Part shown: positions 3,559 to 42,434 of the stretch, one piece after another
Layout of the letters: each line of letters opens with the position of its first letter
Position numbering within the stretch: the stretch's first letter is position 1
Assembly (NCBI GenBank): GCA_944389115.1
Contig: CALXLE010000099.1
Location: forward strand, 1 to 64,000
Reading direction: 5' to 3'
Length of the DNA: 64,000 nucleotides
Origin: an uncultured Spirochaetaceae bacterium
GTDB lineage: Bacteria; Spirochaetota; Spirochaetia; Sphaerochaetales; Sphaerochaetaceae
Notes under the pieces: generated by a model
Database searches by the model: none
The model's input: only the letters and a program-made list of their open reading frames with translations
What the model was told of the DNA's origin: nothing
Made by a program: the position numbers and the translations under genes

Positions 3559-5088
3559 CTATTCCCTCCTCAGGTCTATTGTCTGATTCACCAGAAGCTG
3601 GGTCTGGAACCCCGCCCTGATCCTTATCGTCGGCTCCCTGTCCATGATCAGGTCGATATACTTCTCGCCGAGGTTCTCGGACGTATCGAGGACGCCGGAA
3701 GCGATCAGCGAAAGGGCATCCGTGCCCATCAGGTTAGAGGCAAGCTCCGTCTGCTCGCGGACATATCCCGTGCCGAGGTTTATGACAGAGCCAAGGAACG
3801 CGCCGCCGAGTATCTCCCAGAAATGGGATGTGTACTTATCCCTGACACCTGAATAGCCCTCTCCAGTGACTCCCTGGAATCCGGGAAGGGAGAATACATA
3901 TCCATCAGGGGTTATCATCTCGCGCCATGCTATCTGGACACGCTTCTGCCCGAACGCGACGCTGTCGTTGTAGTCAGCGATCAGCCTTGTGCCCTTCGGG
4001 ATAAGGATATTGGAGCCTGTAAGGGAGTCGTAGACATTCTGCCTTACCTGCCCTATGACCTCTCCCGGAAGATCGGTGTCGATTCCCGTGATGAGGGTAA
4101 TAGGCACCACGGTCCCTGCCGTGAGGCACATATCGTCTATCTTATTGACCGTCCGGGGAACATTCTGATGCTCCTCAAGCCACTCCCTCTGGTTCTGATT
4201 GCCATTGACGCGCTCGTGTCTCTCTTCCTCTGCGCTTGGAGGCTGCTGGCTGCTTGCGGCAACCGCGCTTGAGAGGCTGTCAAGCGATGCCTGCATGCCG
4301 GATGTAAGGTCCGGCATCTGCATCCAGTCCGGATACTCGATGGGAGATTCCATATCGCCCTCGATCGAAGCGCCTCCTATGTCCGCAGCCATGCCCTGGT
4401 TCGCGCTTTCCTCCGCGGCGTTCTCTTCCTCTGCATCGCTTCTGAAGGCAGCGGCACTCGCGATGAGCTGATCCATATCAGCTCCCTCTGAGAGAAGCTC
4501 ATAGTACTTGGATGGCGTAAGTCCCTGGTCATAGATGATCCTGTAGAAGTCATCTATGGTCATATCGTATTCATCCTCGAGGATCTGTATGGTATCCGCT
4601 TCCTGCTGGTTCCGGATATCCTGTGCCGTCGGCTCCTCCTCCGGCTCAATCGTGTCCTCTATGCCTGAGAGCGCGATCCTCACCTGGCTATCGAGATCCG
4701 CAAGATCTATCGCATCATTGATTATGCCTTCCCTCTCGGTGCCGGTTATCTCCCTGATGACATTGCCGTTCCCGTCAAGGAGGTAAACAGAGCCATCCTG
4801 CATGACGCGTATCATGTTCCCATTGCTCTGGTTCATGATGATGTAGTCGGTGCCTGTCTGGTAGGTCTCCTCAATCTGTGGATCGTAGTACCTGATGGAT
4901 GAGGGGACCGGCTGCGGGACAGGGACCTCGGTATTATGAACCGAGTTATCCTTCCTGTTCTGGCCGATCATATGGATGGCTGTAGCGGCGGCAATCACGG
5001 CGATGAGGATGCCGCCGATTATGACGGCCTTCTTCATAAGCCCTTTCTTGTTCACCTGCTGTATGCTTGAGAAGCTTTCCTTCGCCAT
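3559..5088 (-). CDS. virB10: VirB10/TrbI type IV secretion core protein
   Basis: 509 aa. VirB10 spans the inner membrane and periplasm and reaches the outer-membrane core, passing energy from the ATPases to the channel. Visible here are a short cytoplasmic N-terminus, one membrane helix (about residues 20-42), a long acidic and proline-containing periplasmic stretch, and the C-terminal TrbI/VirB10 domain from about residue 325. That domain has the family pattern LTAGTVVP..., NILIPKGTRLIADY and ending in a SFxG-like helical part before DLRRE. It lies 12 bases after virB9 and two bases before the helix-turn-helix gene, so it is co-transcribed with both. Confidence 0.93.
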   Translation of the reverse strand: MAKESFSSIQQVNKKGLMKKAVIIGGILIAVIAAATAIHMIGQNRKDNSVHNTEVPVPQPVPSSIRYYDPQIEETYQTGTDYIIMNQSNGNMIRVMQDGSVYLLDGNGNVIREITGTEREGIINDAIDLADLDSQVRIALSGIEDTIEPEEEPTAQDIRNQQEADTIQILEDEYDMTIDDFYRIIYDQGLTPSKYYELLSEGADMDQLIASAAAFRSDAEEENAAEESANQGMAADIGGASIEGDMESPIEYPDWMQMPDLTSGMQASLDSLSSAVAASSQQPPSAEEERHERVNGNQNQREWLEEHQNVPRTVNKIDDMCLTAGTVVPITLITGIDTDLPGEVIGQVRQNVYDSLTGSNILIPKGTRLIADYNDSVAFGQKRVQIAWREMITPDGYVFSLPGFQGVTGEGYSGVRDKYTSHFWEILGGAFLGSVINLGTGYVREQTELASNLMGTDALSLIASGVLDTSENLGEKYIDLIMDREPTIRIRAGFQTQLLVNQTIDLRRE

Positions 5089-5100
5089 GTGCCTCTCCCC

Positions 5101-6267
5101 TTACTGGATCCTTCTGATCTCGACCTGCTCCTTCTGCCCGCTCTTGAGGATGAAGCGCTGGTCGCTCGTGAGGACGGTATCTATCTGGCAGAGATTGCCG
5201 AAGTACCTGTAGTTCACGAGGGTCTCCTCGCCGTCCCTCCTGAGATACACAGACGGGAGCTGATCCGTATTGGAGATCGAGACAGGGAACTGGATGTATG
5301 TCTTCACATCATCGGAGAAGATCGTCACAGGCTCCCATGCAGGCCTTCCCTTCGTCTTCATCGTGTAATGGTAATTGGCCTTCGAGATGTCGAACTGATA
5401 TCCATCAGCGCTGGCCGTGGTCTCCGTGAAGTCCTCCGAGACGAATGTTCCATCCGCAAGCTGTATCGGATAGCGGAACCGGAGAGCTGTCATGTAGGAA
5501 TTCTCGAACGATGCCATGCGGAAATAATATGTCCTCTCATTCGTGAGGATTATCATCGAGGTGTCGAGACCGACTTTGAGCGGGCGGATGAACAGATGCT
5601 GCACAGCCTCCCCGTTCTCAAGCGATGTGCCGAGACTGAACTGCCAGTTAGCCGTATCATTGGTGATGGGGTTGCCGTTGATCTGCTCACCGGGCTTCAG
5701 ACGGAAATCAGTGATGGCCTTCGGTGAGGTTATCACCTCATAGATGCGTCCTTCCATATAGTCATACTCAGCAATGGATTCAGCGAATGATGTCGCTGAG
5801 CCTATATACTGGAATGCCTTCGCCGTGGCATCGAGCGCGAGTGAGCCGGAAGTGGCTACTCCCTCTTCCTTTCCATAAAGGGAATCATCGAGCGTCGTGT
5901 CGACAAGCGTGTTGCCGGCAAGCAGTTCGTTCTCTATGTCATCCTTCCTCTCCTCCTGGAGAAGAAGCGATGACTGCGCCTTGCCGACGCTGTCCATCTC
6001 CGTCTCCATCTCACGGAGCGTTGTTATGTCTATGACAGGCGAGACGGTGAGATCCTCTGGCTGGATGACTGCCGACATAGGCACATCCTCGCTCAGGTTC
6101 CTGAACCTGTCGCCCTGCACGTCAATGACCTGCACGCGGCTATACGCGCCGCTGTCGAATGCCGCGCTCTGGCATGATGCGAGAAGCATCGACGCACCTG
6201 CAAGCACGGCGAGAGCCGCAGCCATGCGGCCCCTCTCTGCTTTTCCTCTTCGGTTTACCATCTTCAT
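5101..6267 (-). CDS. virB9: VirB9/TrbG-like outer-membrane core protein with its own lipobox
   Basis: 388 aa. It forms the outer-membrane core of the T4SS together with VirB10. The N-terminus is basic, then hydrophobic, then a lipobox LLASC (cysteine near residue 32), so it is probably a lipoprotein. The C-terminal half is the beta-rich VirB9/CagX region, with the family-like run of LFIRPLKVGLDTSMIILTNE, YYFRMAS and a C-terminal RYFGNLCQIDTV segment. Its ATG overlaps the stop of virB8 (ATGA), indicating translational coupling. No separate VirB7 lipoprotein was found in the window, so lipidated VirB9 may fill that role (inference). Confidence 0.88.
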   Translation of the reverse strand: MKMVNRRGKAERGRMAAALAVLAGASMLLASCQSAAFDSGAYSRVQVIDVQGDRFRNLSEDVPMSAVIQPEDLTVSPVIDITTLREMETEMDSVGKAQSSLLLQEERKDDIENELLAGNTLVDTTLDDSLYGKEEGVATSGSLALDATAKAFQYIGSATSFAESIAEYDYMEGRIYEVITSPKAITDFRLKPGEQINGNPITNDTANWQFSLGTSLENGEAVQHLFIRPLKVGLDTSMIILTNERTYYFRMASFENSYMTALRFRYPIQLADGTFVSEDFTETTASADGYQFDISKANYHYTMKTKGRPAWEPVTIFSDDVKTYIQFPVSISNTDQLPSVYLRRDGEETLVNYRYFGNLCQIDTVLTSDQRFILKSGQKEQVEIRRIQ

Positions 6268-6917
6268 ATAAGCTCCCTGAGAAGTGAGATATCGAAATCT
6301 GTGACATACATGCCGATAGGGTTGTCTATCCTCTTCCTCTCCGTATCGGGCGTATAGAACGCCACCGTGAATATGCCTTCGTACTGGCTGTCGCCGAGTA
6401 TGCGGTTATCATTCCTGCGGTATGTGGTCTCCCTCCATGAGACGCGCCACTGCGTAGGGCTGTACTGGACAATGCTTATCTCCTCAGAAGGGATCCTCAC
6501 ATACTCCTCAGCTGATCTCTCGATGGGGTTGTTGGCCATATACCAGTCATTGAGCTTCCGCGAGGCCTGGCTGAGAGTCTTGGCGAACACGACGCCAGCA
6601 TTCTCCTGGTTGCGGTAATTGTCTATAGAGACGGTTCTCATCCTCGTGACGAAATCGCGCATGAAATAGCGCTGCGTCGCATCGTTCGGCGTCCAGTCCT
6701 CAAGAAGCTTCACGGCATCAGGATAGTAGGTAGCCTGTCCGTCCTGCGTGAGCTCTATGACCCATGGAACGCTCTTTGGAAGCGTCCCAAGATACAATGC
6801 GATCCCGACGAGGACCGCGATGAAGGCTGCAAGGCAGATTATCACGACCTTCTGCAGCCTCATGATGAGCTCATAGCGGCCCAGTATATCAGCCGCGTTT
6901 CCTTTCTCCTTCCTCAT
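6264..6917 (-). CDS. virB8: VirB8/TrbF inner-membrane assembly factor
   Basis: 217 aa, the usual size for the family. A short cytoplasmic tail is followed by one membrane helix (about residues 24-44) and a periplasmic NTF2-like domain. The domain shows the family-type segments YFMRDFVTRMRTVSIDNYRN, PTQWRVSWRETTY and a final GMYVTDFDIS. VirB8 nucleates assembly of the channel and contacts VirB9 and VirB10. It overlaps virB9 at its end and starts exactly at the virB11 stop, so the four genes are one translationally linked unit. Confidence 0.92.
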   Translation of the reverse strand: MRKEKGNAADILGRYELIMRLQKVVIICLAAFIAVLVGIALYLGTLPKSVPWVIELTQDGQATYYPDAVKLLEDWTPNDATQRYFMRDFVTRMRTVSIDNYRNQENAGVVFAKTLSQASRKLNDWYMANNPIERSAEEYVRIPSEEISIVQYSPTQWRVSWRETTYRRNDNRILGDSQYEGIFTVAFYTPDTERKRIDNPIGMYVTDFDISLLRELI

Positions 6918-8941
6918 CAGTCAATACTCCTGTTGTTCCTGACATCAAGCAGGTCGACGACCTTCCTCTTATTCGACTTCGGCAGTCGGTCCATCTGGAC
7001 AACCACATCGACAGCCGTCTTTATCATCTCCATCTGGCTGGATACGGAAACCTCGCCGCAGAGCTGATCAAGCCTGCTGAATACATCATGCGTGTTATTG
7101 GCATGTATGGTCGTTATCCCGCCGGGATGTCCCGTATTCCATGCCTTGAGCATCTCAAGGGCCTGATTGCCGAAGCGGCACTCCCCTATGAGGATCCTCG
7201 TGGGCCTCTGCCTGAGGCTGTCGCCGATCGCATCAAGATATGTGTAATCCCTGTTGACGAGCACCTTCAGCACATTCGGCTGCGAGAACATGAGCTCATT
7301 GACATCCTCGATGCAGATTATGCGCTCAGATCTGTCTATGAGCGTGCAGAGGGTATTGGCGAAGGTTGTCTTTCCCGAATTCCTCTGCACCATGAAATTC
7401 CTCATGAGATAGAGATGGTTCCCTGTCACCGTTATGCCGTAGAAATCGTCCTCGCCGGCCTCTTCCACGGTGAACTCCGTGATATTCCTGAACGGCTCCG
7501 GCCGGCTGTCCTCCGGGCGGTATCTGTTCCATGATACACGGCAAGGGATGCGCTCAAGGTCTCCCTGTATGGCAACCCTAGAGCCTACGGTGACACGCTC
7601 CCCTGTCACAGGATCCCTGTCCTCCGCCTTCCTCGGCTTCACAGTGGCGCGGAATCCGAGCGACCTTGCAACAAATGCAAGATCCTCCGCGAACTCCAGG
7701 GAACGCATATCGATCTTATATTGATGCTTTCTCCTTGAAAGCGTCCCCCGTGAATCGATGATGCCCGCAAGGAGCTTCATGCGGTCCTCGGCAGGAGCAA
7801 GGCTATAAGCCTCTGGGATGCGCCTGTGCTTCAGGTCCCATGGCTCGATCCACGCGCCATAGCGCCTGAACGCGTTCCTGTATTCCTCCATGCCTGCCTC
7901 TCTCATGGCCCTGTCATGCATTCCCCTGTCAAAGAGGACGAGGCAGTCGGTATATCCGTTCCTATGGGGATGCCTCATCTCAAGAAGCTTCCATCCCCTT
8001 GACTCAATCCATCTCCTGTATTCCTTCACGCATTCATTGCGGATGATGCACCTGAATGACTGGGATGTATCCGCGAGGTTTCCCTCAAGAAGCAGCAGTC
8101 CCATGACATACGGAGGAATCTCCAGATCCTCCGAGATCTTTCTGAACTCTTTCACACCGCTGCAGAAATAGAGGAAATGCCCTTTCCGGAACCGCTCATC
8201 CATATGGATATAATCCTTTACAGGGATCTCGATGTGCTCCTTTCCATCTGCATCGGTAAGCGGGAGATAATGCCCGGCGTTCACGATAAGGGCATCGCCA
8301 TGCTTCGGGATGATCCTGTACATCATCTCACGTCCCCTGTGAAGCTCAATGACCTCGCGTGGTGTGCCGTCATCGCCCATGACAAGATCGCCTGCAGCCA
8401 CATCCTCAATCCTCTTCTCGGAGCCGTTAGCCATGAGGATCCGTGTTCCCTTCGCATGGCAGCCTGTGCCACCGGAGAATATGATGTTCTTATGCGAGTC
8501 AATGGCTTCCCTGAGGAATTCCATCTGGGATTCCGTTATAGTCCCGCCCTCTACCATCTTCTCCGGGGATATGACGACAGGATTTGGCTTCCTCATCACA
8601 AGGGATATGTTGTTCACCGCAGGCCTCATCACGAAATTCGCGCGGAGATTCATCCGCGGAATGACGACATTGAGGCTCTGGTTCTTCTCATTGTTGACCT
8701 GCTGATTCCAGTAGGATGCGAGTATAAGGGCTGCACCATAGATCCCCTTCTGGCTGAGCCTGCATGGCACCTCGCGTATCGTATCGGAATCCACGAAGAC
8801 AAATCCCTTCTCATAGCAGTCGGGATTGACCATGATATCCGACCAGCCTGGCATATCTATGATGCGGCAGAGGTCAGGCCCGAAGCCTGCCCTGACATCA
8901 TTGTATACCTGCTCCATCGTTATCCTACCTGAAATCGGCAT
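6917..8941 (-). CDS. virB11: VirB11/TrbB traffic ATPase precursor interrupted by an intein in its Walker A loop
   Basis: 674 aa as translated. Removing residues 161-521 leaves 313 residues, close to the normal VirB11 size. VirB11 is a hexameric cytoplasmic ATPase powering pilus assembly and substrate export. The N-extein ends in GGTG and the C-extein begins SGKTT, so splicing restores a perfect P-loop GGTGSGKTT. Downstream come ICIEDVNELMF (Walker B/Asp box-like), LRQRPTRILIGECRF and GHPGGITTIHANN, all family hallmarks. Without splicing the ATPase cannot bind nucleotide, so channel power depends on intein excision. It is the first gene of the virB11-8-9-10 unit; a TATAAT lies 28 bases upstream and AAAGGA serves as ribosome site. 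Confidence 0.95.
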   Translation of the reverse strand: MPISGRITMEQVYNDVRAGFGPDLCRIIDMPGWSDIMVNPDCYEKGFVFVDSDTIREVPCRLSQKGIYGAALILASYWNQQVNNEKNQSLNVVIPRMNLRANFVMRPAVNNISLVMRKPNPVVISPEKMVEGGTITESQMEFLREAIDSHKNIIFSGGTGCHAKGTRILMANGSEKRIEDVAAGDLVMGDDGTPREVIELHRGREMMYRIIPKHGDALIVNAGHYLPLTDADGKEHIEIPVKDYIHMDERFRKGHFLYFCSGVKEFRKISEDLEIPPYVMGLLLLEGNLADTSQSFRCIIRNECVKEYRRWIESRGWKLLEMRHPHRNGYTDCLVLFDRGMHDRAMREAGMEEYRNAFRRYGAWIEPWDLKHRRIPEAYSLAPAEDRMKLLAGIIDSRGTLSRRKHQYKIDMRSLEFAEDLAFVARSLGFRATVKPRKAEDRDPVTGERVTVGSRVAIQGDLERIPCRVSWNRYRPEDSRPEPFRNITEFTVEEAGEDDFYGITVTGNHLYLMRNFMVQRNSGKTTFANTLCTLIDRSERIICIEDVNELMFSQPNVLKVLVNRDYTYLDAIGDSLRQRPTRILIGECRFGNQALEMLKAWNTGHPGGITTIHANNTHDVFSRLDQLCGEVSVSSQMEMIKTAVDVVVQMDRLPKSNKRKVVDLLDVRNNRSID
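7379..8461 (-). other. Intein (361 aa) with degenerate LAGLIDADG homing endonuclease, in virB11
   Basis: It starts with Cys161 (CHAKGTRILMANG, with the GDLVMGDDG turn typical of Hint block A) and has a block B-like NAGHYLP with the expected histidine. It ends ...GNHLYLMRNFMVQRN with terminal Asn521, followed by Ser522 as +1 nucleophile. The residue before the terminal Asn is Arg rather than the common His. Two dodecapeptide motifs of the endonuclease core are visible: VMGLLLLEGN (residues 279-288) and LLAGIIDSRG (390-399). The acidic position is Glu in the first and Arg in the second, so cleavage activity may be reduced to nicking or lost. The protein-splicing residues look intact. Confidence 0.93.
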
Positions 8942-9051: not shown

Positions 9052-9075
9052 AGCAGCAAAGCCTCGGTCACTGCT
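9052..9075 (-). terminator. Weak terminator after the relaxosome genes
   Basis: On the minus strand AGCAG (9075-9071) can pair with CTGCT (9056-9052), followed directly by TTTGTTTT. It overlaps the stop codon of the 156-aa accessory gene and separates it from the virB11 promoter. The stem is only five pairs, so support is modest. Confidence 0.4.
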
Positions 9076-9538
9076 CATCCTGCTGCTTCTTCGCCTCTGC
9101 CCTGAGGCGGAGGACCTTGTTGACAGCGTCCTCTATCTCCGAGACGAGGAACGGATCATACCTGTTCTCGGCTGTGGTAAGGAGCATTATCACATCGGAG
9201 CCCGCATCATGCTGGGCTTTCTCGATCTCCTTGTCGATTGCCTCCGCCGCAGGGGAATCAGCGCTCTTCACGCCTTCCATTGACATGCGCATGCTCTTGT
9301 ATAGCCTGATGATCATGTTCATCATCATCTGGTTCTCGAAGAAGCGGTAATCCATATCCTGATGGAGCGCATCAAGGAAAAGGAGCGCCTGTCTGAGCGT
9401 CGTCGGCTTCTCCTCGGCGAGACGCATGCGGCAGTACTGGCTGAGGGAGATACCCTCCGCTTTCGCCATCTTCGACACCGCCTGGTATTCATCTTCAGAA
9501 AGCCTTATGCTTATGCATCTGTCACTCATTCCCGACAT
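9068..9538 (-). CDS. Ribbon-helix-helix relaxosome accessory protein (MobC-like)
   Basis: 156 aa from ATG 9538, or 153 aa from ATG 9529; the second overlaps the stop of the preceding small gene and may be the coupled start. The N-terminus CISIRLSEDEYQAVSKMAKAEG followed by SLSQYCRMRL fits a CopG/MobC-type ribbon-helix-helix (beta strand, two helices). The remainder is helical and charged, ending in a lysine/glutamine-rich tail. In mobilisation systems such proteins bind oriT and help the relaxase load. As the last gene of the relaxase-virD4 operon it is probably the oriT-binding partner; no oriT could be assigned. Confidence 0.72.
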   Translation of the reverse strand: MSGMSDRCISIRLSEDEYQAVSKMAKAEGISLSQYCRMRLAEEKPTTLRQALLFLDALHQDMDYRFFENQMMMNMIIRLYKSMRMSMEGVKSADSPAAEAIDKEIEKAQHDAGSDVIMLLTTAENRYDPFLVSEIEDAVNKVLRLRAEAKKQQDEQ

Positions 9539-9701
9539 CCTCCTCTATCGTGGCCCTGACATATTCAGCCACGGACCTGTTCTCCTGCTGCGCCTTGTCG
9601 ACGATGCACTTGTATGTACCGTCCTTGACGCGGAAGGCAATGTTCCTCGTAAGCTTGTCCTCCTGCCTCTTCCGGGGACGGCTCCGCCAGTTCTCATCCA
9701 T
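9522..9701 (-). CDS. Small ribbon-helix-helix protein (59 aa)
   Basis: The frame opens with an ATG whose A is the last base of the virD4 stop codon (TGATG overlap) and ends by overlapping the next gene (ATGAGTGA). Residues about 16-55 read as a strand (LTRNIAFRVKDGTY) and two helices (CIVDKAQQENRS, AEYVRATIEED), the ribbon-helix-helix pattern. The lysine/arginine-rich start suits DNA binding. It is probably a second relaxosome or autoregulatory protein. The perfect coupling on both sides supports it as a real gene despite its size. Confidence 0.7.
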   Translation of the reverse strand: MDENWRSRPRKRQEDKLTRNIAFRVKDGTYKCIVDKAQQENRSVAEYVRATIEEDVGNE

Positions 9702-12112
9702 CAGCGGTCTCCTTCGGGGCTATCCATGAACCAGCCAGCGATATCGTCGATGTCATACTCGGCAAGGTGCGATGCATCCCCGAGAGAATCGATGGCAGCC
9801 TCTTCAGCGGCGTCCTCATCCGGATCGTCTGTGCTGTCATTGATATAGTCATCAGACCGCCCGATGATCGGGTCGCCGGCATCCTTCCTCTTCTCTTCAT
9901 CCTTTCCGCTCTCGACCTCTGCTGTGTAATCGCCGTCATGGAGCTTCGCGGCGCCTTTGAGCGCGTGCCAGCCCTCGTTGTCCACGCCTTCGTTCACTCC
10001 ATCATGGATTGCTTCCGGATGCGGATAGTTGTCGTTTATATCAGGCGGAGGAAGAGTCCTTCCATCCTTATCCTTATAGAGCCTCGTGAAGCGCGGATCC
10101 ATGTAATACCTGATCTTCTTCGCCTTATACGGATGCTCTCCGGAAGAGATGATGATGCACTCGTTATCATCCATCGTCCTTATCTCCTCCGCGGTCATGA
10201 GCGATCTGCCGACCTCTGAGACCGAGATATTCGCATTGGGCTTGGATATGAGATCCACGTTGCCCGAATACCCGGTCGACTTATGCTGCTTGGTAGCCTG
10301 TCCGAGTATCCTCTCTATCTTCTGGCATGTGCTGTCATCATTGACGCGGAGGATCACCTGATACGCGAAGTTGTCGGTGAATATCGACTCCGACTGGTAC
10401 AGGACCTTGAGCTGGTCATACGACTGTATCGCGACGGCGCAGAGGACGCCGTAGCCCGCGGAAAGCGCGAGCGCCTTCTCGACGATATCCATCTTCCCGA
10501 GCTGCCTGAACTCATCGAAGATCAGGAGGAGCCTGTATGGCCGCTTCGAATCAAGGTCCCTTGTGAGGAGCGTGATCGCCTGCTCATAGAATATCTTGAT
10601 AAGCGGGACAAGGCGCTGGATGGACGAGAGGGATACGCAGAGATACAGCGATAGCGGTGCCCTGTTGCCCTTCTCGTCAACGATGCCATGGACGAAGTCC
10701 TCCATCGTGAAATCCGAGCGGTCAGTTATTGCCTGGACATTCGGATCTGATATGACATTGAAATGCGATGTCATCGTGGAGAGCGTCGAGGAAAGCTGCT
10801 TGTCCTCGCATTCGCTGAAATAGACAAGATCCTTCTCTATCTCCCTTAGCGTCGCGACATCATCATCCGAAAGATATCCTTCGGAGCGCTTCTTCAGCTC
10901 GCGCTCCCTCCTGCTGATATCATTGAGCCTCTTCTCCACGGATACCGGGACGGAATCCCTGTCATATCCCCTGGCAGCCTTCTCCGCCTCCGCCTTCTCT
11001 TCCTCCAGCTTATCCCATTCATCGCGGATCTCCTCAGGATACTGCCCTGTCCTGATATACTGCTGGATGCGCTTGACGTAGTACTTCAGGTACCTCTTGA
11101 CCATAAGGAGGCCCTGATCCTCCTCGGTCTCAACAGCATCCTCAAGGACCTGGTAGTTCGAGAATATCGATGCGATCTGGGCGAAGTTCTTATGCTCGGG
11201 TGGCTCGCAGTATATGACGTATCCGCAGACAGCGGAGAAGAGCTTCCTCGCCTCGTTGTCCCAGAAAGGCTCCTTCGACTGCTCGTTGTTCGGGATGAGG
11301 ATATACGCAAGGTTCTGTATATCCGGTATTGCCTGCTTTCCTCTCCTTATCGCGAGAAGGGGATTGTAGTGTATCGACTCATCAGGCTTTTCCGGCCTGA
11401 ACTGGAATGTATATGAGAACCGTGCCCTGCAGGATGCGGAGATCTCCCAGGACTCGGCCTTCGGGTCGAGTATGATAAGCGATTCCGGCCACTGGAAAGT
11501 CGTAGGGATGAGGACTGAGACACCCTTTCCGGAACGCGTTGATCCGACAACGAGCGTATGCGCGTTCTTGCTCTGGGTTATGAGGTCGCCAGGCTTCTCG
11601 AACCTGTACTCAGTCTCCTTCCTGTCCCATTTCTCAAGCCTTGCCTTGTAATCAGGGCGGCTCTCCCCCTTCTTCCGCTTCGGCTTCCTTATCCGCACCT
11701 TCCTGTAGACCGCATCGAATGTCTGCCCAAGGACAAGCCCCTGCTTCTTCAGGAGCCCCGCGGATCTCAGGTCGTTCTTCGTTGCCCACTTGGATGAGCC
11801 ATGGAGGGTTGTCTTCCGGTTCGCGAATAGGCGGAATATGCGGGATGTCGTAAGGGAAAGGACCAGCCATATGAACGCGGAGAGAGCGACCATGGCAACG
11901 CATTCCCACGAAGATCCCTCGAATGCCCTTATGCCCTCTTCCATCACATAGACGAATGTCTCCCCGGGCGAGAAGAGCCATATCCGGAAACTCCCTATGG
12001 ATACTATCCTTATCGTCTCCGGGATCATATAGTAATTCCAGCCGCAGAGGCATATGAGCACGGCTATGCCCAGATACATAAGCGGCAGCAGTATCCTCAG
12101 CGCTATAAGCAT
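9701..12112 (-). CDS. virD4: VirD4/TraG type IV coupling protein
   Basis: 803 aa. The coupling protein is the inner-membrane ATPase that hands the relaxase-DNA complex to the channel. Two membrane helices (about residues 5-28 and 70-92) precede the TraG signature HGSSKWATKNDL. Walker A is GSTRSGKG (190-197), followed by IILDPKAESWE, and Walker B lies in LLLIFDEFRQLGKM. Residues about 345-425 form a charged insertion rich in E, K and R, longer than in typical TraG and possibly a coiled coil. The acidic C-terminal tail (DDYINDSTDDPDEDAAEEAA) may recruit substrates with basic tails (inference). A GGAGGGAAGG ribosome site precedes the ATG, nine bases after the relaxase stop. Confidence 0.95.
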   Translation of the reverse strand: MLIALRILLPLMYLGIAVLICLCGWNYYMIPETIRIVSIGSFRIWLFSPGETFVYVMEEGIRAFEGSSWECVAMVALSAFIWLVLSLTTSRIFRLFANRKTTLHGSSKWATKNDLRSAGLLKKQGLVLGQTFDAVYRKVRIRKPKRKKGESRPDYKARLEKWDRKETEYRFEKPGDLITQSKNAHTLVVGSTRSGKGVSVLIPTTFQWPESLIILDPKAESWEISASCRARFSYTFQFRPEKPDESIHYNPLLAIRRGKQAIPDIQNLAYILIPNNEQSKEPFWDNEARKLFSAVCGYVIYCEPPEHKNFAQIASIFSNYQVLEDAVETEEDQGLLMVKRYLKYYVKRIQQYIRTGQYPEEIRDEWDKLEEEKAEAEKAARGYDRDSVPVSVEKRLNDISRRERELKKRSEGYLSDDDVATLREIEKDLVYFSECEDKQLSSTLSTMTSHFNVISDPNVQAITDRSDFTMEDFVHGIVDEKGNRAPLSLYLCVSLSSIQRLVPLIKIFYEQAITLLTRDLDSKRPYRLLLIFDEFRQLGKMDIVEKALALSAGYGVLCAVAIQSYDQLKVLYQSESIFTDNFAYQVILRVNDDSTCQKIERILGQATKQHKSTGYSGNVDLISKPNANISVSEVGRSLMTAEEIRTMDDNECIIISSGEHPYKAKKIRYYMDPRFTRLYKDKDGRTLPPPDINDNYPHPEAIHDGVNEGVDNEGWHALKGAAKLHDGDYTAEVESGKDEEKRKDAGDPIIGRSDDYINDSTDDPDEDAAEEAAIDSLGDASHLAEYDIDDIAGWFMDSPEGDR

Positions 12113-12121
12113 CCTTCCCTC

Positions 12122-13624
12122 CTAATCCCTTGCCTTCTTCCTCAGGTTCTGCCATGTCAGCAGCTTCGGAACCTTCCCGTCCTTGAGGAAGCCGACCTTC
12201 GCGAACTGCCCATCGATGGCACTGCGGTCAAGCTCTGCAGGGATCTCATCCTCCAGCACATGGAGCTTCCCTTTCTCGTCCACGATGCTGAAGATATATG
12301 AATCCGGATCCTCATCAGAGATCCGGTGGCTGACGATGCGCCCTGAATACGGGACGAAATCATCACCCGTTCCTTCCACGACGACCTTGTCAGCATCGTC
12401 CATGTCTATTCCTGCCCGCTCCATCTTCAGATGCTTCTGGAGCTCGGCATCCCAGTCCTTGTCAAGCCACCATCCGTGGATTGCGCTGTCATATCTGACC
12501 CTGCCACCGGAATGCCTGCCGAGGTATGTGAGGCGGCGCCTGAGGATGTTCCTCATCTCCTTATCGCGCTTCTTCATATCCTCGAAGGTTATGCAGTACC
12601 TGTCTCCCTCCCTGTGGTTGAGGATATGTATCTGATGGTCGATATAGGAATAGGACCTGTTCTCCACGAGCTTCCTGGATATCTCCATGGCTTCCTCGAC
12701 GGACCGTTCCCCCATGAAATCGGTGAGTATGCGTCCAGCATCCCTGAAGGCCTTCTGCTTCCTGACATAATCCCTGCTGAAGCGGAGATAGCCGTTTCTT
12801 CCTGCCCTTGCGCCCTTCTCCATAGGAACCCGGGAAACAAGGATATGGACATGCGGATGCTCTGTGTTGTAATGGTTCGCGGCGAACCACAGGGACGTTG
12901 AACTGCCGATAGCCGGGAAGAATGAATCCTTCATGAAGCGGCATGCAAGCTCCGAGAGGTCGACATTGCTGTCCTCGGGAGAGAGGATGATGCGGAATAC
13001 GGGCTTGTCCCCGAGCCTGTCGATCACCCTCTCGTTCCTGATGAATACCTTCTCGCCCTTGCTGTTGTATGTATATACAGCCTGGTCCCTGACAGCTTCC
13101 TCATAATATGGCTTCGGCCTGATCGCGGCCTCTTCCCTCGAGATATAGGCAACCTTTGCCGCGTTGCTTCTGGCGGTATCAGGCCCGGATCTGTCCGAAT
13201 AGGTTATCTTCACAAGGCATCTTCTCTGTCCGCCGGAGATAGCCTTCTTCAGATGCGCTGCTGTGGAACGCTTTGCTGTCCTCGATGCATGCGGAGAGCT
13301 GCCAGCGGCAGGAGCAGAAGCCCCGCGGCGCTTCCCGCCCGGCCTTCTGATGCCCGAGAGCTCGGCCTGTCTTGAGAGCGGTCTTGCCGGATTGCTGGCA
13401 CCGCCTGAATGCCCGTAGTATGATGCGTTCTTCCGGCTTCTGTCCGGCTGCTTCGAATGAAGCCCCGCCTTGAAGCCATACGAGACAAGCCAGAAGTCCT
13501 CCGCGCCTCTCCTTATCGGGCGGCGTGAGGATATGTGGCCATCGAGCTCCCCGGACATATCAAGCGATATATCGCGTCCCTTGTAATGGACATCGAGAGG
13601 CCTTACAAGCGAGAGTGTCCTCAT
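12122..13624 (-). CDS. MobA/VirD2-type relaxase
   Basis: 500 aa. It nicks oriT and pilots the strand through the T4SS. The metal-binding histidine cluster is HYNTEHPHVH (residues 251-260), the 3H motif of VirD2/RP4 TraI-type relaxases. The likely nucleophile is Tyr160 in AAKVAYISREE, by analogy with this subgroup. A 130-residue basic, low-complexity N-terminal extension (rich in R, S, G, A) precedes the nuclease domain and is unusual; it may bind DNA. The C-terminus is a beta-rich region that may contact DNA or the coupling protein, ending in a basic NLRKKARD. The start overlaps the virB4 stop (ATGA). Confidence 0.88.
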   Translation of the reverse strand: MRTLSLVRPLDVHYKGRDISLDMSGELDGHISSRRPIRRGAEDFWLVSYGFKAGLHSKQPDRSRKNASYYGHSGGASNPARPLSRQAELSGIRRPGGKRRGASAPAAGSSPHASRTAKRSTAAHLKKAISGGQRRCLVKITYSDRSGPDTARSNAAKVAYISREEAAIRPKPYYEEAVRDQAVYTYNSKGEKVFIRNERVIDRLGDKPVFRIILSPEDSNVDLSELACRFMKDSFFPAIGSSTSLWFAANHYNTEHPHVHILVSRVPMEKGARAGRNGYLRFSRDYVRKQKAFRDAGRILTDFMGERSVEEAMEISRKLVENRSYSYIDHQIHILNHREGDRYCITFEDMKKRDKEMRNILRRRLTYLGRHSGGRVRYDSAIHGWWLDKDWDAELQKHLKMERAGIDMDDADKVVVEGTGDDFVPYSGRIVSHRISDEDPDSYIFSIVDEKGKLHVLEDEIPAELDRSAIDGQFAKVGFLKDGKVPKLLTWQNLRKKARD

Positions 13625-15951
13625 CGGCCATCCCTCGCGATCCTCTCGAGCTGATAGCCATCAAGGTCGAATCTTACAAGGGCAGAGCCCTCTTCCTGCT
13701 TTATGAAATACTCGCTCTTCCTCTCAGCGTTGCCGATGACGGTTATCTCATCATCAGAACATCCCATCTTCCTGTAGAGCTCCTTTATCGCCTCTGAGCC
13801 GCCTTCCCTCACGGTGCTGTTCGGGAGGAATATCTCCGTATGGCACGATGTCAGGAACTCCTCGAAATCATCGATATCGCTTATGTTCTGGAGTGCGAAG
13901 ATGACGAATACGTTCTTCTTCCTGAGCGTCTTCAGCCATTCCTTGATCTTCCTGCGGAACACTGGATGCGAAAGAAATTTCCAGGCCTCGTCGAGGATCA
14001 ACAGGGACGGCTTCGGATCGGCATCGAAGAGCTCATCCATACGGTCGAACATGAACTGCAGCGCCGGGAGCACCGCCTCATTGCCGAGGTTCATCAGAGG
14101 CCCCATCTCTATCATGGTCTTCCTCCTGAACGAATCCTTGTTGAACTCATCCGTCTCGCCTCCGAAGAGCTTCGAGAGATCGCTGTCATCGAGGATCTTC
14201 TGGAGCGCGGGGAGCGCGAGAGACATCGGGTTATAGCCCCTGAGGCGCTGGGTGAAGCGCTCAACCGTAGGCGGAAGCGACTCATCCCATTCACGGCAGA
14301 CAGCCATGAGCTCCTCGGAGATATCCGGGGTAAGCGTTATGTTCGATGAGATTATGACGGTCTCAAGCCAGTTCACTGCCTGCGACGGCTTCGTCATTAT
14401 GCGCGAAAGCGGCATGAAGGAGAGCCTGCTGCCCTCGGCTGTGGGGATATACACTGCTCCGCCTGTTCTCTCACAGAGATTCCGGAAGGACATATCCTTA
14501 TCGAAGAGTATCACGCGGGAATCCGGGTATCTCGCCCACTGGGATGCAAGGAACGCGAGGAGTATGGACTTGCCGGAGCCCGTGGCACCGACTATGACCG
14601 TATGCCCGACATCGTCCTTCGGACCATTGAGATTCAGGAAATACAGCTCATTCGTGATGAGCTTACCTATCGCATGGGGCCAGCCCACGCCGGAGATGCT
14701 CTTCAGGAAGTGGTTTATATTGCTTCCATGATACATGTCCGTAAATGGTATGATATGTGAGATATTCGATGCCGTAACCCAGGGTTTCCTGCGGTTGGAA
14801 AGGCTGTCTCCCGGAAGCGATGACTTCCATGCCGGGAAGTTCGACGTGCTGTCCTCCGTGATGGCATCGAATCCTACGGAGCTTATGACCCTCTTCGTGA
14901 TCGCGACCATATCCTTCAGACGCTCAATATCCTCATCCATGAGGATGACCGTGCTTGTAAGCTCACCGATCGTCTCGCCTGTCGTAAGGTCATACATCAC
15001 CTGCTGCATGTCCTCGACATCCGTTTCGGCCTGCGCCTCGACGACACCGGAATCCTTGCCGGTGGATGTCTCATAGAACACTGTCTTCCAGCTCTTCATG
15101 CCGGAGCGGTAGGCCTGCTGCATCTTCTTAGCCTCGGCCTGGGACTCGAAGTTGTTCCTTGGTATCCACCTTGTGACCCATCTGAAGCAGAACGGGAGCG
15201 CGAGAAGGCCGACGAGAATGTTCGGATATGTCCTTGACGGGAATGAGTTGATTGTCAGGGCCTGGAGATACTTGTCTCCATAGACCATGGGCTGGCCCTT
15301 CTGCATGAACTTCGTTGAAAGGTAATCCGAGAGGTTCCCCATCCCGTTCTCAGGGCACTGGTATTCCGCGAGATCCGTACCTGTCATGTACTTGAGGAAG
15401 TCCATGATGCTGCAAGGCCCCTCTCCATCGCATGTAAGGGCGATCGGGCGCGCGTTGATCGTACGGAGCGTCGACTCGAAGTTTATGAATACATTCTCCG
15501 CGTGCTTCCTCGACTTTTCCGTTATGCCTGTCGATTCGAGCTTGACCTCGCACTTGCACACGGCGAAGTTGCGGTTGAGCATATTCCGGCTAGAATCGCT
15601 GAATATGTCATTGCGGTGGAGCTCTATCTCCAGATCCGCATCATGCATGTTGTCCGCGCCGGATATCACAGGATCGACGACGACTGTCATAGGGATCCTT
15701 TCCATGACGAACCAGTAGGCGATCTTCGTCACCTTCTGGTCATCCTCATGCTGCTGGAACGTACGGGCTATCCTGTCCGATATCTCATCACAGCTGACCG
15801 TATCCATGGCGGAATCCGGGTACTGGACATACCAGACCTTCATGAGGCCCCAGTCCTTGGTGAGCACAGTCCCGTCTGGATTGAGCTCCTGATACGGAAG
15901 CGCGTCCGCGACCCTTTCGCGTGGCTTCCCATGCCTGCCGAATAGACCCAT
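13621..15951 (-). CDS. virB4: VirB4/TrbE conjugation ATPase
   Basis: 776 aa from ATG 15951, chosen for AGGAG nine bases upstream; an in-frame TTG lies 18 bases earlier. VirB4 is the largest T4SS ATPase, located at the inner membrane and needed for pilus biogenesis and transport. Walker A is GATGSGKS (about 455-462); Walker B is LLILDEAWKFL near 665, followed by the family's VFRRKIKEWLKTLRKKN and IFALQN. The N-terminal CagE/TrbE-like part runs through about residue 400. It directly follows virB3 and its stop overlaps the relaxase start. Confidence 0.95.
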   Translation of the reverse strand: MGLFGRHGKPRERVADALPYQELNPDGTVLTKDWGLMKVWYVQYPDSAMDTVSCDEISDRIARTFQQHEDDQKVTKIAYWFVMERIPMTVVVDPVISGADNMHDADLEIELHRNDIFSDSSRNMLNRNFAVCKCEVKLESTGITEKSRKHAENVFINFESTLRTINARPIALTCDGEGPCSIMDFLKYMTGTDLAEYQCPENGMGNLSDYLSTKFMQKGQPMVYGDKYLQALTINSFPSRTYPNILVGLLALPFCFRWVTRWIPRNNFESQAEAKKMQQAYRSGMKSWKTVFYETSTGKDSGVVEAQAETDVEDMQQVMYDLTTGETIGELTSTVILMDEDIERLKDMVAITKRVISSVGFDAITEDSTSNFPAWKSSLPGDSLSNRRKPWVTASNISHIIPFTDMYHGSNINHFLKSISGVGWPHAIGKLITNELYFLNLNGPKDDVGHTVIVGATGSGKSILLAFLASQWARYPDSRVILFDKDMSFRNLCERTGGAVYIPTAEGSRLSFMPLSRIMTKPSQAVNWLETVIISSNITLTPDISEELMAVCREWDESLPPTVERFTQRLRGYNPMSLALPALQKILDDSDLSKLFGGETDEFNKDSFRRKTMIEMGPLMNLGNEAVLPALQFMFDRMDELFDADPKPSLLILDEAWKFLSHPVFRRKIKEWLKTLRKKNVFVIFALQNISDIDDFEEFLTSCHTEIFLPNSTVREGGSEAIKELYRKMGCSDDEITVIGNAERKSEYFIKQEEGSALVRFDLDGYQLERIARDGR

Positions 15952-16044
15952 TATGAATTCTCCTGTCAATCAGATAAGCCGGATGAACCGGCTATGCCCC
16001 GAGGCCGGTGTGCCGGCATCCGGGCATAGGGACCAGCCCCGGCC

Positions 16045-19266: not shown

Positions 19267-22047
19267 TCAGGTTCTTGAGAGCCCTCTCTGAGGAAGCGGT
19301 GCCTTACGCGGCTTCTCTGGAGCAGAAGATTCCTTCTTCTGGCCCTTATCCGCGGGCTTTATGAATCCCCTGCTGATGGCATCATCGATTGCCTTGTCAG
19401 GAATGCCTTCAGGGAATACTGCGGCTATATGCATTTCATACATATCAGCCCTGCTGAGGATGCCCTTCGCTGCGAGGATGCGCTTCGCAACGCCGCTTAT
19501 ATCACCTTCGAGCCTGGCAGCCTCATCCTCGAGCCTTGCCGCATTGGACCTTGTATCAAGGGGTATGGAGTCGGCCTCCTTCCTTATCTCCTTTTCCATA
19601 TCGGCCCTTTCCTTCTTCATGTCACTGAGCCTCTTCTCTATTGCCTCGATCGTCTGCTCCGGAAGCTTCCCGTTCTTCCTGTCCCTTGCGAAGTCCTTCT
19701 CGGTGCTGGCAATCCGGGCATCAAGCTCAGCGGCCCTATCGGCAACAGGGGTCTTCATGGTATTGGCGAGGGCTTTCTTCCTGCCTTCAAGCCTCTCTTC
19801 CAGCTTCTCCCTCCTTTCGCTGAGACTTTCCATGCCTTCCCTGAGCTTGTCTATGGACGGTCTGAGCTCCCTGAGCTTCAAAGCCTCCTCGAGAAGGTGC
19901 TTCCTTCCCGATTCAATGCGCTCGGCTTCCTTGATGACGGGCCCGGAGGCGCTGCCTTCAGGGAAGATGCGGCCAGCGATCTCCTCTGCATCAAGGCCGT
20001 TGTCACGGATGCCTTTCAGAAGGGATTCCCTGCCTCTGAGACCGAGGATGTCAAATGCCTCAGGATCCTGATGGAGAGCATCAAGCTCATCCCTGTGCCT
20101 TTCAAGGAGGAGCTTTGCCGTCGCGATATCAAGCGCTTCGTCATAGACAGTGCTTCCGTAGTCACGGGCGATATCCGGATCGATCCGGTTGAGCTGGCTG
20201 TCCTCCCTGAGCGTCGGGTCGGTCTCCTCAGGCATGATGCAGCTGTATATGCCATCAATGCCCGTCTCGAATATCGCCCTCATCTCAGCAGGGGTTATCC
20301 CCTCAAGCTGCATTCCGATAGCACGGAAGGTCCTTTCCTCATCGCCGCGGCCAAGCCTTGAGATCTCATTCCCCGGGACGTTCTCCTCATACTCCCTCAT
20401 GCTCTTCACGACGAAGGAATATGCGGCTTCCGGGAGCCTCTCCCTGAAGATGCCGAGTATCCTGTCCCTTTCCGCCTCCGTGAAAACCGGGACAGCTCCT
20501 GCCACATGGGGAGTGAATGATATGCCTTCGGGGGAATATCCGCTGCCGCTTCTGGAGACACGGACATAATTCGGGATCCTCGCAACCGGGCGGAGCATGT
20601 CATCGCCTGTCCTTCCTGCTGCAAGATTCTCCGCCGCCTGAAGGAACATGCTGTCATATGACGCAAGCGCCCTGGGTGGGATGTAGAACCTCTCCGGCCG
20701 CGATGCAGCAGAAAGCGGCTCAGCTTCTTTCCTGAGCTGATTAGATCTCTCTATGGAATCAACGATATCCCTGTCCGGGCTGCAGAGCCTCGAGAGGAAC
20801 GGATACGGGATGCGTGATTCGGCATTCCTTGCCGCGCTCCGGATCGCCGCGTATTTCTCCGGTGTCATATCGGGGTCCTTTGATGCCTCATTGAGCTCCC
20901 TTCTCGCATCGCGGTAATCGTTATACGCCTCCAGCTGGCTCTCAATGCTCATCTCGCCGGCTCCTATCCGTATCTCGTTGTCGAGGCCGACTGATGAGAT
21001 ATATGCCCTGAGGATATCGGCTGCCGCAAGCCCATCCTTGCCGCATTCCGAATAAAGAACCGGGTCCTTCATTATGGAAGATCCGCTGAATAGCTCCTTC
21101 ACTATCGCATCAAGCCTTTCAGCCTTCCCGGAGAACGGAATCGACGTATCATCATATGTCCTTATGAAATCAGAAAGAAGGCCGAGTGACCTGTAGAAAT
21201 CCCTGGAATTCTCTGCTTCGATCGGGAACTTGAGGTCCGTGTCCTTCCTTGCGATCTCATCCTGGAGGATCGTTGTCGGCGAATTCTGCTCCTTGTCATG
21301 GTTGACGAAGATGGAGTTATCCACGCCTTCATCATCAAGGACCGAATCCTTCAGCCATTCAGGCGCGTAGATGTTGCTATGGTTGAGATTGGCAGTATAC
21401 CTTTCCCTGCTCCATGTATCATCCTCCTTGATCTCCGACCCCTTCTCCATGTCCTTGCCATCATAGGATGCGAAGTTGAGGTTGTCCGTCTCGCGGATAC
21501 GGACATCGGCCATCGTATCAACGGTCACATGCACGCCGAGCACGCTGCCGAGGATATCACGGCCAAGGGCGATGCACTGGGCAGGGTCGGAGGCGTCATA
21601 GGAATCCGAAATGGCGTATTCCTTCCCGTCGCGCTTTGATGCGTCAGTGGCAGGGCCGCCTGCTATGGTCGCATTCGTGCGGCAGATATACTGGCCGTCC
21701 TTATTGCTTCTCATGAAGCGCGGCGCCCTGAGATGGAGGATATCCTTCATGAATGCCTTGCCCATCCTCAGAAGCTCCGGAGAGCCTGCGATAAGGCCAG
21801 AGCTGTCAGCATGCTCCATTATGATATCCGCCTTCTCATCATCTATCGCGTCAAGGTCGATTGCCTTGATGAAGAGGCTTCCGATCAGATCCTCTGGCGG
21901 TCTGTCCTTGCCGGATGTCCTGATGCGCCCGGCATCGGAACGATGGATTCCCATCATGCCGGAGAATCCCATCATATCGCGCTGAGCGGCCTTTGCTGCC
22001 GCTGCAATCGGATTCACATAGCTCTCATTCACAGATCCATATGCCAT
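19267..22047 (-). CDS. Giant helical protein of unknown function (926 aa)
   Basis: The start at 22047 was chosen because AGGAGG lies nine bases upstream and 16 bases follow the previous stop; an in-frame extension would overlap that gene by 200 bases. There is no signal peptide or membrane helix. Residues 1-40 carry alanine-rich helix and methionine/glycine-rich segments. The last third (about residues 690-880) is a long run of E/K/R/A heptads such as LREGMESLSERREKLEERLE, predicted coiled coil. The C-terminus is basic (KGQKKESSAPEKPRKAPLPQ). I do not recognise a family. It pairs with the 1647-aa gene upstream in one transcription unit. Confidence 0.8.
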   Translation of the reverse strand: MAYGSVNESYVNPIAAAAKAAQRDMMGFSGMMGIHRSDAGRIRTSGKDRPPEDLIGSLFIKAIDLDAIDDEKADIIMEHADSSGLIAGSPELLRMGKAFMKDILHLRAPRFMRSNKDGQYICRTNATIAGGPATDASKRDGKEYAISDSYDASDPAQCIALGRDILGSVLGVHVTVDTMADVRIRETDNLNFASYDGKDMEKGSEIKEDDTWSRERYTANLNHSNIYAPEWLKDSVLDDEGVDNSIFVNHDKEQNSPTTILQDEIARKDTDLKFPIEAENSRDFYRSLGLLSDFIRTYDDTSIPFSGKAERLDAIVKELFSGSSIMKDPVLYSECGKDGLAAADILRAYISSVGLDNEIRIGAGEMSIESQLEAYNDYRDARRELNEASKDPDMTPEKYAAIRSAARNAESRIPYPFLSRLCSPDRDIVDSIERSNQLRKEAEPLSAASRPERFYIPPRALASYDSMFLQAAENLAAGRTGDDMLRPVARIPNYVRVSRSGSGYSPEGISFTPHVAGAVPVFTEAERDRILGIFRERLPEAAYSFVVKSMREYEENVPGNEISRLGRGDEERTFRAIGMQLEGITPAEMRAIFETGIDGIYSCIMPEETDPTLREDSQLNRIDPDIARDYGSTVYDEALDIATAKLLLERHRDELDALHQDPEAFDILGLRGRESLLKGIRDNGLDAEEIAGRIFPEGSASGPVIKEAERIESGRKHLLEEALKLRELRPSIDKLREGMESLSERREKLEERLEGRKKALANTMKTPVADRAAELDARIASTEKDFARDRKNGKLPEQTIEAIEKRLSDMKKERADMEKEIRKEADSIPLDTRSNAARLEDEAARLEGDISGVAKRILAAKGILSRADMYEMHIAAVFPEGIPDKAIDDAISRGFIKPADKGQKKESSAPEKPRKAPLPQRGLSRT

Positions 22048-22063
22048 AATACCAATCCTCCTA

Positions 22064-41036: not shown

Positions 41037-42434
41037 TCAGAGATCTGAGAGAAGCCTGCGATCTGTCTGTATCTCATATACAGTGAGGCGGGAACGCTTG
41101 TCCGGAGCATAAAGCCTGTCGATAAGGGCCGCTACGGGAATGAGGTTCCTTGCGTATATGTGGGTATATATACGCTGTGTCTTCGTAAGGCCTTCCTTCG
41201 AATGGTCCCATCCGAGCCATTCCGCGCTCAGCGGCCCAGGGACTCCGCATACAGCCAGGCAGGACTGAAGGCTATGCCTGAGCACATGGGATGTGATGGA
41301 CTGCCAGACCTCGGCCCTGTCCGGATACACGCTGCACGCGGTAGCTATGATCGAACCCATAGCCATCTGGACTTCCCCATAGCTCATGGAGAAGAGGTAC
41401 CCGTCCTTGTCAGGCTCGAGAAGCGAGATGGCATCCACGGCAAGCCTCGGAAGCGGAATGGTCCTTGTGTATTCGTATTTAGGCTTTCCTATCGAGCCGC
41501 ATCCGGCCTCTGTATACTTGAGTGCCTTCTCGATGGTGAGGACATCCCCGGAGATCTCGTCAGTGGAGAGAGCGAGTATCTCTCCCCTTCTCATCCCGGT
41601 CGTGGCCGCAATGCAGAAATAAGCGTAATACTCAGGGGAAATCATGCGGTTTCTGAGCGCGAGGATATCAGCGATATCGTTCGGGTCGACCGCCTGACGG
41701 GGAACCTTCTCGTAATGTATGTCCTTCAGGCCATTTGCCGGATTGAGGTCTATGTAGCCCTCGTCATGGAGGCCGCTGAACATAGCCTTGACCATCTGGA
41801 ACATCTTCATCGTCGTGCAGTTCCTGCCCATCTCCTCCACGAGAAGCTTCCTTATCGTGTTTATGTCCCTGGAGTCGATATCCTTCACTGCCTTATTGAG
41901 GAGCCGTGGATACCTTCTCGAGAGTATATCCTCCAGGTCGATGGCATACCGGACCATATGCTTCGCATGTCCATAGCTGTACAGCGTTCCATCGCGCTTT
42001 GCCGCCAGGTATCTTGGGTTGGTTTCCGGTGTGCGGTACAGTCTGAGGATCTTCTTCAGCGGCGGGCTGAGGACGAATATATCCTCGCATATCTCGCGGT
42101 ACATCTCCGTGGCTATCTCAAAGGCTTCCCAGGGATCCTTCTTCCCGGTTGTCTTCCTATAATCATTCCCGGTCATAGGATCCTTGAAATAGAGGGAAAA
42201 GCATCCGGTCTCGCCTCTTCTGTAGATATAGAAGCGGGCTTCTTCTGATGCGATGCGGAACGGCGCGACCTCTCCTTTGAGGATGAGCTCAGCCTGCTTG
42301 ATAGCCTCTGTCCGGTCGGATCTTCCGGTGCATACGGACACGGCCTGATGCGTTCTCGGCTCTATGAATTCGAAGTAGAAATGCCTTGTCCCTGGCTTCT
42401 TGTCGATAATCGTATCGGCAACCCTGATATCCAT
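41037..42434 (-). CDS. int: Tyrosine recombinase/integrase of the element
   Basis: 465 aa. Catalytic residues are all placed: Arg282 (TGMRRGEIL), His383 and Arg386 (SHVLRH), His411 (GWDHS) and Tyr423 (RIYTH). The N-terminal ~120 residues form an arm-binding-like region and the middle a core-binding (SAM-like) domain. GGAAGGAGGG precedes the ATG and a TATAGT lies upstream. It is the last element gene before the chromosomal LacI gene, so it marks the right end. Integration target unknown. Confidence 0.92.
   Translation of the reverse strand: MDIRVADTIIDKKPGTRHFYFEFIEPRTHQAVSVCTGRSDRTEAIKQAELILKGEVAPFRIASEEARFYIYRRGETGCFSLYFKDPMTGNDYRKTTGKKDPWEAFEIATEMYREICEDIFVLSPPLKKILRLYRTPETNPRYLAAKRDGTLYSYGHAKHMVRYAIDLEDILSRRYPRLLNKAVKDIDSRDINTIRKLLVEEMGRNCTTMKMFQMVKAMFSGLHDEGYIDLNPANGLKDIHYEKVPRQAVDPNDIADILALRNRMISPEYYAYFCIAATTGMRRGEILALSTDEISGDVLTIEKALKYTEAGCGSIGKPKYEYTRTIPLPRLAVDAISLLEPDKDGYLFSMSYGEVQMAMGSIIATACSVYPDRAEVWQSITSHVLRHSLQSCLAVCGVPGPLSAEWLGWDHSKEGLTKTQRIYTHIYARNLIPVAALIDRLYAPDKRSRLTVYEIQTDRRLLSDL

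Follow-up and report, generated by a model that had tools for sequence, protein, structure and literature searches.

A class 1 intein with a degenerate endonuclease in the P-loop of a TrbB-like ATPase gene of a probable conjugative element from Sphaerochaetaceae, and a mini-intein at the same site in a sister element

Introduction

Inteins prefer P-loop ATPases as hosts, and it is debated whether they reside there as parasites or as switches. The T2SSE/VirB11 superfamily of ATPases counts archaeal KlbA among its intein-bearing members. The KlbA inteins belong to class 2 (PMC4031507), unlike the class 1 intein described here. Inteins in P-loops are familiar (PMC5050341, PMC5874633), and degenerate endonucleases have already been recorded in inteins at this site (PMC8966425). 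PI-SceI, the yeast VMA1 intein, is found at the VMA-a site, whereas the P-loop site of the same ATPase is VMA-b (PMC8966425); the latter is occupied by the PhoVMA intein of an archaeal V-type ATPase (PMC8966425).

The window, i.e., the whole analysed stretch of 64,000 nucleotides from an uncultured Spirochaetaceae bacterium, contains an intein of 361 residues in the P-loop of a TrbB/VirB11-type ATPase gene (slashes mark insertion points in the motifs given below). It shares with PI-SceI the domain order, the full-length fold, Cys1 and two LAGLIDADG motifs, the best sequence match being to the first 54 residues, but differs by its shorter length (361 vs. 454 residues), the lost endonuclease acids, a penultimate Arg and its host, a bacterial conjugation ATPase. 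The PhoVMA intein likewise occupies a P-loop ATPase and has lost the catalytic acids of its endonuclease (Z 21.6 against our model), but is only 14% identical in sequence. Inteins of phage terminases (e.g., L110, L111, L116, L118 and L120) belong to the same family and use the same Walker A position (G/SGKS, G/TGKT, G/SSKS, G/TGKD), but they reside in packaging ATPases, and most of them have lost neither the penultimate His nor the two endonuclease acids. Our literature search for an intein in VirB11 or TrbB found no report, which does not establish it as unreported because most subscription journals lay outside the search. New here is the syntenic element of another genus with an endonuclease-free mini-intein at the same site.

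The Host Gene and Its Intein

The host gene and the parts of the intein are arranged as follows.

6917..8941, minus strand: trbB/virB11 gene with intein, coding for a 674-aa precursor, stop codon included (single open frame; T2SSE 7.1e-28; TrbB as best NCBIfam match)
8462..8941, minus strand: N-extein, precursor residues 1-160, the GGTG end being the first half of Walker A
7379..8461, minus strand: intein of 361 aa, precursor residues 161-521 (junctions, Pfam, PI-SceI alignment, model, fold match)
8162..8461, minus strand: N-terminal splicing (Hint) part, intein residues ~1-100, with Cys1, Asn61 and His64 (PF05203, alignment, model)
7481..8125, minus strand: degenerate LAGLIDADG endonuclease, intein residues ~113-327 (PF05204 2.7e-6; lowest conservation of 48 members, 20/33)
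8081..8113, minus strand: LAGLIDADG motif 1, intein residues 117-127, PYVMGLLLLEG, with E126 for the usual Asp (alignment)
7745..7777, minus strand: LAGLIDADG motif 2, intein residues 229-239, KLLAGIIDSRG, with R238 for the usual Asp (alignments)
7379..7480, minus strand: C-terminal splicing part, intein residues ~328-361, with block F His349, Arg360 and Asn361 (junctions, PI-SceI and family alignments)
6920..7378, minus strand: C-extein, the SGKTT start being the second half of Walker A, with GECR and HPGG..HAN boxes

The intein splits the Walker A motif GGTG/SGKTT, with the junctions FSGGTG/CHAKGTRILM...LMRNFMVQRN/SGKTTFAN. Pfam recognised Hom_end_hint (1.7e-25) and Hom_end (2.7e-6) in the insert and T2SSE (7.1e-28) in its C-terminal flank. 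All core residues of a class 1 intein are kept, namely C1, N61xxH64 of block B, the C-terminal N361 and Ser+1. An AlphaFold2 model based on 34 intein sequences reached a pLDDT of 87 and a pTM of 0.88 and showed the Hint fold in comparison with many intein structures (Z 14-31). The best match, covering the full length, was PI-SceI (Z 30.7, 328 residues, 26% identity), followed by the TliVMA, Prp8, PI-PfuI and PhoVMA inteins. The first-pass annotation had placed a 361-aa intein with Cys1, a terminal Asn, Ser+1, LAGLIDADG motifs and Arg instead of the penultimate His at 7379-8461 within the P-loop; the coordinates and residue calls proved exact, including R360 and both motifs (GLLLLEGN and LLAGIIDSRG). 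Its statement that the ATPase is inactive before splicing is borne out insofar as the P-loop is broken in the precursor. An assembly artefact is a very unlikely source of the intein because another genome has a mini-intein at the same site (see below).

The Putative Conjugative Element

After joining, the exteins form a protein of 313 aa, which scored 214 bits with the TrbB model (TIGR02782; cut-off 304.55) and 150 bits with that of VirB11 (cut-off 249.95). Two intein-free relatives in the same genus reached 271 and 226 bits for TrbB and likewise stayed under the curated NCBIfam cut-off, and we therefore regard the host as a member of a divergent TrbB-like lineage. The extein boxes IGECR and HPGGITTIHAN are intact and have similar forms in the intein-free relatives. 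Walker A, GE.R and HAN boxes are present in the T2SSE domain, and genes for VirB8, VirB9, VirB10, TraG and VirB4 lie beside the gene, a combination that marks TrbB/VirB11 proteins. The initial assignment as a VirB11 conjugation ATPase accordingly stands for the superfamily, but not for VirB11 proper, the protein being nearer to TrbB. A PF00437 search of the own genome (2.47 Mb, 167 contigs, 89.5% complete) returned only this gene and one sub-threshold match, that is, no intact second virB11, whose presence the first-pass annotation had named as an argument against its reading. The following further genes were assigned to the element.

3559..5088, minus strand: VirB10/TrbI-like gene (PF03743 4.3e-52)
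5101..6267, minus strand: VirB9/TrbG-like gene (PF03524 1.3e-43)
6264..6917, minus strand: VirB8/TrbF-like gene (PF04335 3.2e-24)
9068..9538, minus strand: ribbon-helix-helix protein, NikA-like (PF21983 2.6e-8)
9701..12112, minus strand: TraG/VirD4 coupling protein (PF02534 5.5e-80)
12122..13624, minus strand: MobA/VirD2-like relaxase (PF03432 9.6e-9)
13621..15969, minus strand: VirB4/TrbE ATPase (NCBIfam TrbE 5.4e-105)
41037..42434, minus strand: tyrosine recombinase, candidate integrase of the element (NF040815 9.9e-9)

The adjoining transfer genes are open frames, and a helicase-like and a primase-like gene occur in the same further stretch as the tyrosine recombinase. This set of genes makes an integrative conjugative element very probable. 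A comparison of the left flank with the integrase region for direct repeats gave no convincing att sites and the ends of the element were not located, so its mobility is judged from gene content. The putative element also contains a gene for a TnpB-family RNA-guided endonuclease (34902-36278; NF040570, above cut-off) and two very large overlapping ORFs of 999 and 1647 aa (19267-27007), which had no Pfam match at E 0.001. Just to the left of the element lies a gene of lower GC content (~39%) with leucine-rich-repeat-like repeats (1-2227), and the GC step near 2-3 kb may mark the left end of the element.

A Mini-Intein at the Same Site in a Sister Element

Among the 139 genomes of the host's taxonomic family, 12 matched a profile of the precursor, mostly by TrbB-like genes. 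One further case of the same insertion point was found among these TrbB homologues, in a genome of a different genus (G054): it contains a mini-intein of 146 aa at GGTG/SGKT, which lacks an endonuclease and ends with His-Asn/Ser. The element around it is syntenic with that of the window. The two intein-bearing ATPases are sisters (support 100/99), and no interruption of the P-loop was seen in the other homologues checked. Between the two elements, the splicing domains are 48% identical, the ATPase exteins 47%, and the VirB4, TraG, VirB8 and VirB9 proteins 49-55%. Because the splicing domain has diverged about as far as the other genes of the element, the intein looks like an old resident that was co-inherited rather than recently homed, and it appears to have moved with the element since the two elements split.

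Alternatively, two related inteins may have been acquired separately at the same P-loop site, one per element. The intein tree gives no support for a sister relation of the two, and the G/xGK site was used more than once in phage proteins, because a topology with all G/xGK-site inteins as one clade was rejected (p-AU 0.007). We nevertheless regard two acquisitions as unlikely, since the host ATPases are sisters, the divergence of the inteins matches that of the element genes, and a clade of both TrbB inteins is not rejected, the p-AU of 0.46 neither supporting nor rejecting their monophyly with the mini-intein as a long branch.

Splicing and Homing Competence

The intein was compared with its family in an alignment of 107 rows, consisting of this intein and 106 others including the same-site mini-intein. 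The penultimate His is present in 103 of the 106 other rows, while Arg occurs at this place in three of all 107, namely in Arg360 of this intein and in two others (phage intein L120, and L134). Near the C-terminus, the family-conserved positions D346, D355 and T357 are also altered, and with 29 of 40 conserved positions kept, the splicing domain ranks low among 48 non-redundant members (range 27/42 to full). These changes (Arg360, T346, N355) could leave splicing defective or very slow, with little or no active TrbB formed and the element in decay. We consider this quite improbable, because the catalytic residues C1, H64, N361 and S+1 are retained, the extein and the adjoining transfer genes are intact frames, and phage protein L120 also has the penultimate Arg. 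One phage intein has Gly as its penultimate residue, splices well and does so less well after mutation of this Gly to His, and the block F His is able to replace the penultimate one (PMC5050341); in the alignment with PI-SceI, His349 of our intein falls on the block F His. Because such variation is known in phage inteins (PMC5050341), the penultimate Arg is no bar to class 1 membership, nor does it imply the slow splicing that had been proposed from it. We conclude that the intein probably still splices.

The endonuclease gives a different picture. Its LAGLIDADG domain lies between the splicing blocks, as seen from PF05204 and the full-length alignment with PI-SceI. Motif 1 (GLLLLEGN) shows the exchanges W123L, G125L and D126E, at positions where Asp126 is found in 101 and Gly125 in 103 of the 106 other rows. 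Motif 2 (AGIIDSRG) has the exchange D238R, aligned to residue 326 of PI-SceI, where 101 of the 106 other rows have Asp; the mini-intein row is gapped at both motifs. The family Asp is therefore absent from both motifs (E126, R238), so that the loss of the acid from the second one, as annotated earlier, is accompanied by a change in the first. Altogether, the domain retains 20 of 33 conserved positions, the lowest value among the 48 non-redundant members. Of the two forms suggested by the first-pass annotation, the non-homing one agrees with these data, as the endonuclease looks inactive, while a nickase is less likely than a dead enzyme because 13 of 33 conserved positions are lost. Because both catalytic acids are mutated and the sister element lacks the endonuclease, the intein probably no longer homes.

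Origin and Retention of the Intein

The Hom_end_hint family is common in DnaB-like helicases of Bacteroidota, Campylobacterota and Methylococcales, where the inteins occupy GMGK/T, and also in phage helicases and terminases. Phage terminases and Toprim-containing (primase-helicase-like) proteins carry them at G/xGK, the same P-loop position as in TrbB. In a tree of the splicing domains, both TrbB inteins group with four terminase-type inteins (L116, L120, L110, L060) with moderate support (83/81), and a move of the intein from the P-loop of a phage terminase to that of TrbB is a fair inference. This suggests that a phage-terminase-type intein came to occupy the corresponding P-loop position of another ATPase. 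Relatives of the whole precursor were absent from the viral contigs database, and class-wide and phylum-wide searches for the intein returned only the two family members, the rest being non-intein Hint proteins or weak matches. Among the PLSDB matches listed, no plasmid TrbB gene had an intein at this site; one long match contained a different intein at K/T.

We consider the following account, taken as a whole, to be likely. Through endonuclease homing, a Hom_end_hint (PI-SceI-like) intein of class 1 would have entered the G/SGKT site of the TrbB/VirB11 ATPase, its donor most likely being a terminase or another P-loop protein of a phage, and would then have been inherited together with the element while homing was lost. 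The precursor would be translated with a split Walker A motif, in which Cys1 attacks the Gly160-Cys161 bond before Ser+1 takes over the N-extein. With the penultimate His missing, another residue, possibly His349, would then help Asn361 to cyclise, and ligation of the exteins would restore GGTGSGKTT and thereby an active motor. Splicing is probably constitutive. In the general view, an intein that is lost imprecisely from a catalytic loop leaves a dead host protein; long retention without homing fits this view, as the intein would persist because such a loss would wreck the ATPase.

It is also conceivable that the element keeps the no longer homing intein as a post-translational switch, with conditional splicing in response to redox state, temperature, metal or a host signal gating the TrbB motor and timing the supply of power to the conjugation channel. 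This idea is attractive because the ATPase with an unspliced P-loop should be inactive, and both elements have retained the intein, with its endonuclease eroded in one and lost from the other. However, long persistence is expected even without any benefit, most homologues in the taxonomic family do without the intein, and no regulatory feature or other pointer to conditional splicing is apparent in its sequence. For other P-loop inteins, such as that of mycobacterial DnaB, splicing is documented to be conditional (PMC6195587). The evidence gathered does not distinguish gating from neutral persistence and in no way favours gating, which we regard as very unlikely to be the reason for keeping the intein. 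The eroded and the absent endonuclease at one site in sister lineages provide a natural pair for asking whether a non-homing intein is kept by chance or for use.

Further Inteins

An independent P-loop intein is present in a member of the same ATPase superfamily, a CpaF/TadA-like T2SSE ATPase on a plasmid of Miltoncostaea oceani (L018, NZ_CP064357.1, 2452-4770). It probably belongs to a different class and is inserted three residues further on at GAGK/T (GEMGAGK/A...VTHN/TSM). It starts with Ala and has Trp, Cys and Thr at places resembling class 3, which makes this a candidate class only.

Two viral contigs (L138 and L140) code for phage Toprim/primase-helicase-like proteins with endonuclease-free mini-inteins of the Hom_end_hint family at SGTG/(C/S)GKS, a further natural example of an endonuclease lost at this P-loop position. 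A phage terminase on another viral contig (L111, 4914-7604) contains two Hint domains, one belonging to the P-loop intein at GGRG/SGKS and the second located near the C-terminus (DNH/CFVAGT...VHN/CCDAF). Finally, a predicted DNA cytosine methyltransferase from the genus of the window (genome G039; L155, 100-2109) carries an apparent separate Cys-type intein (GGFP/C...HN/CQDIS).
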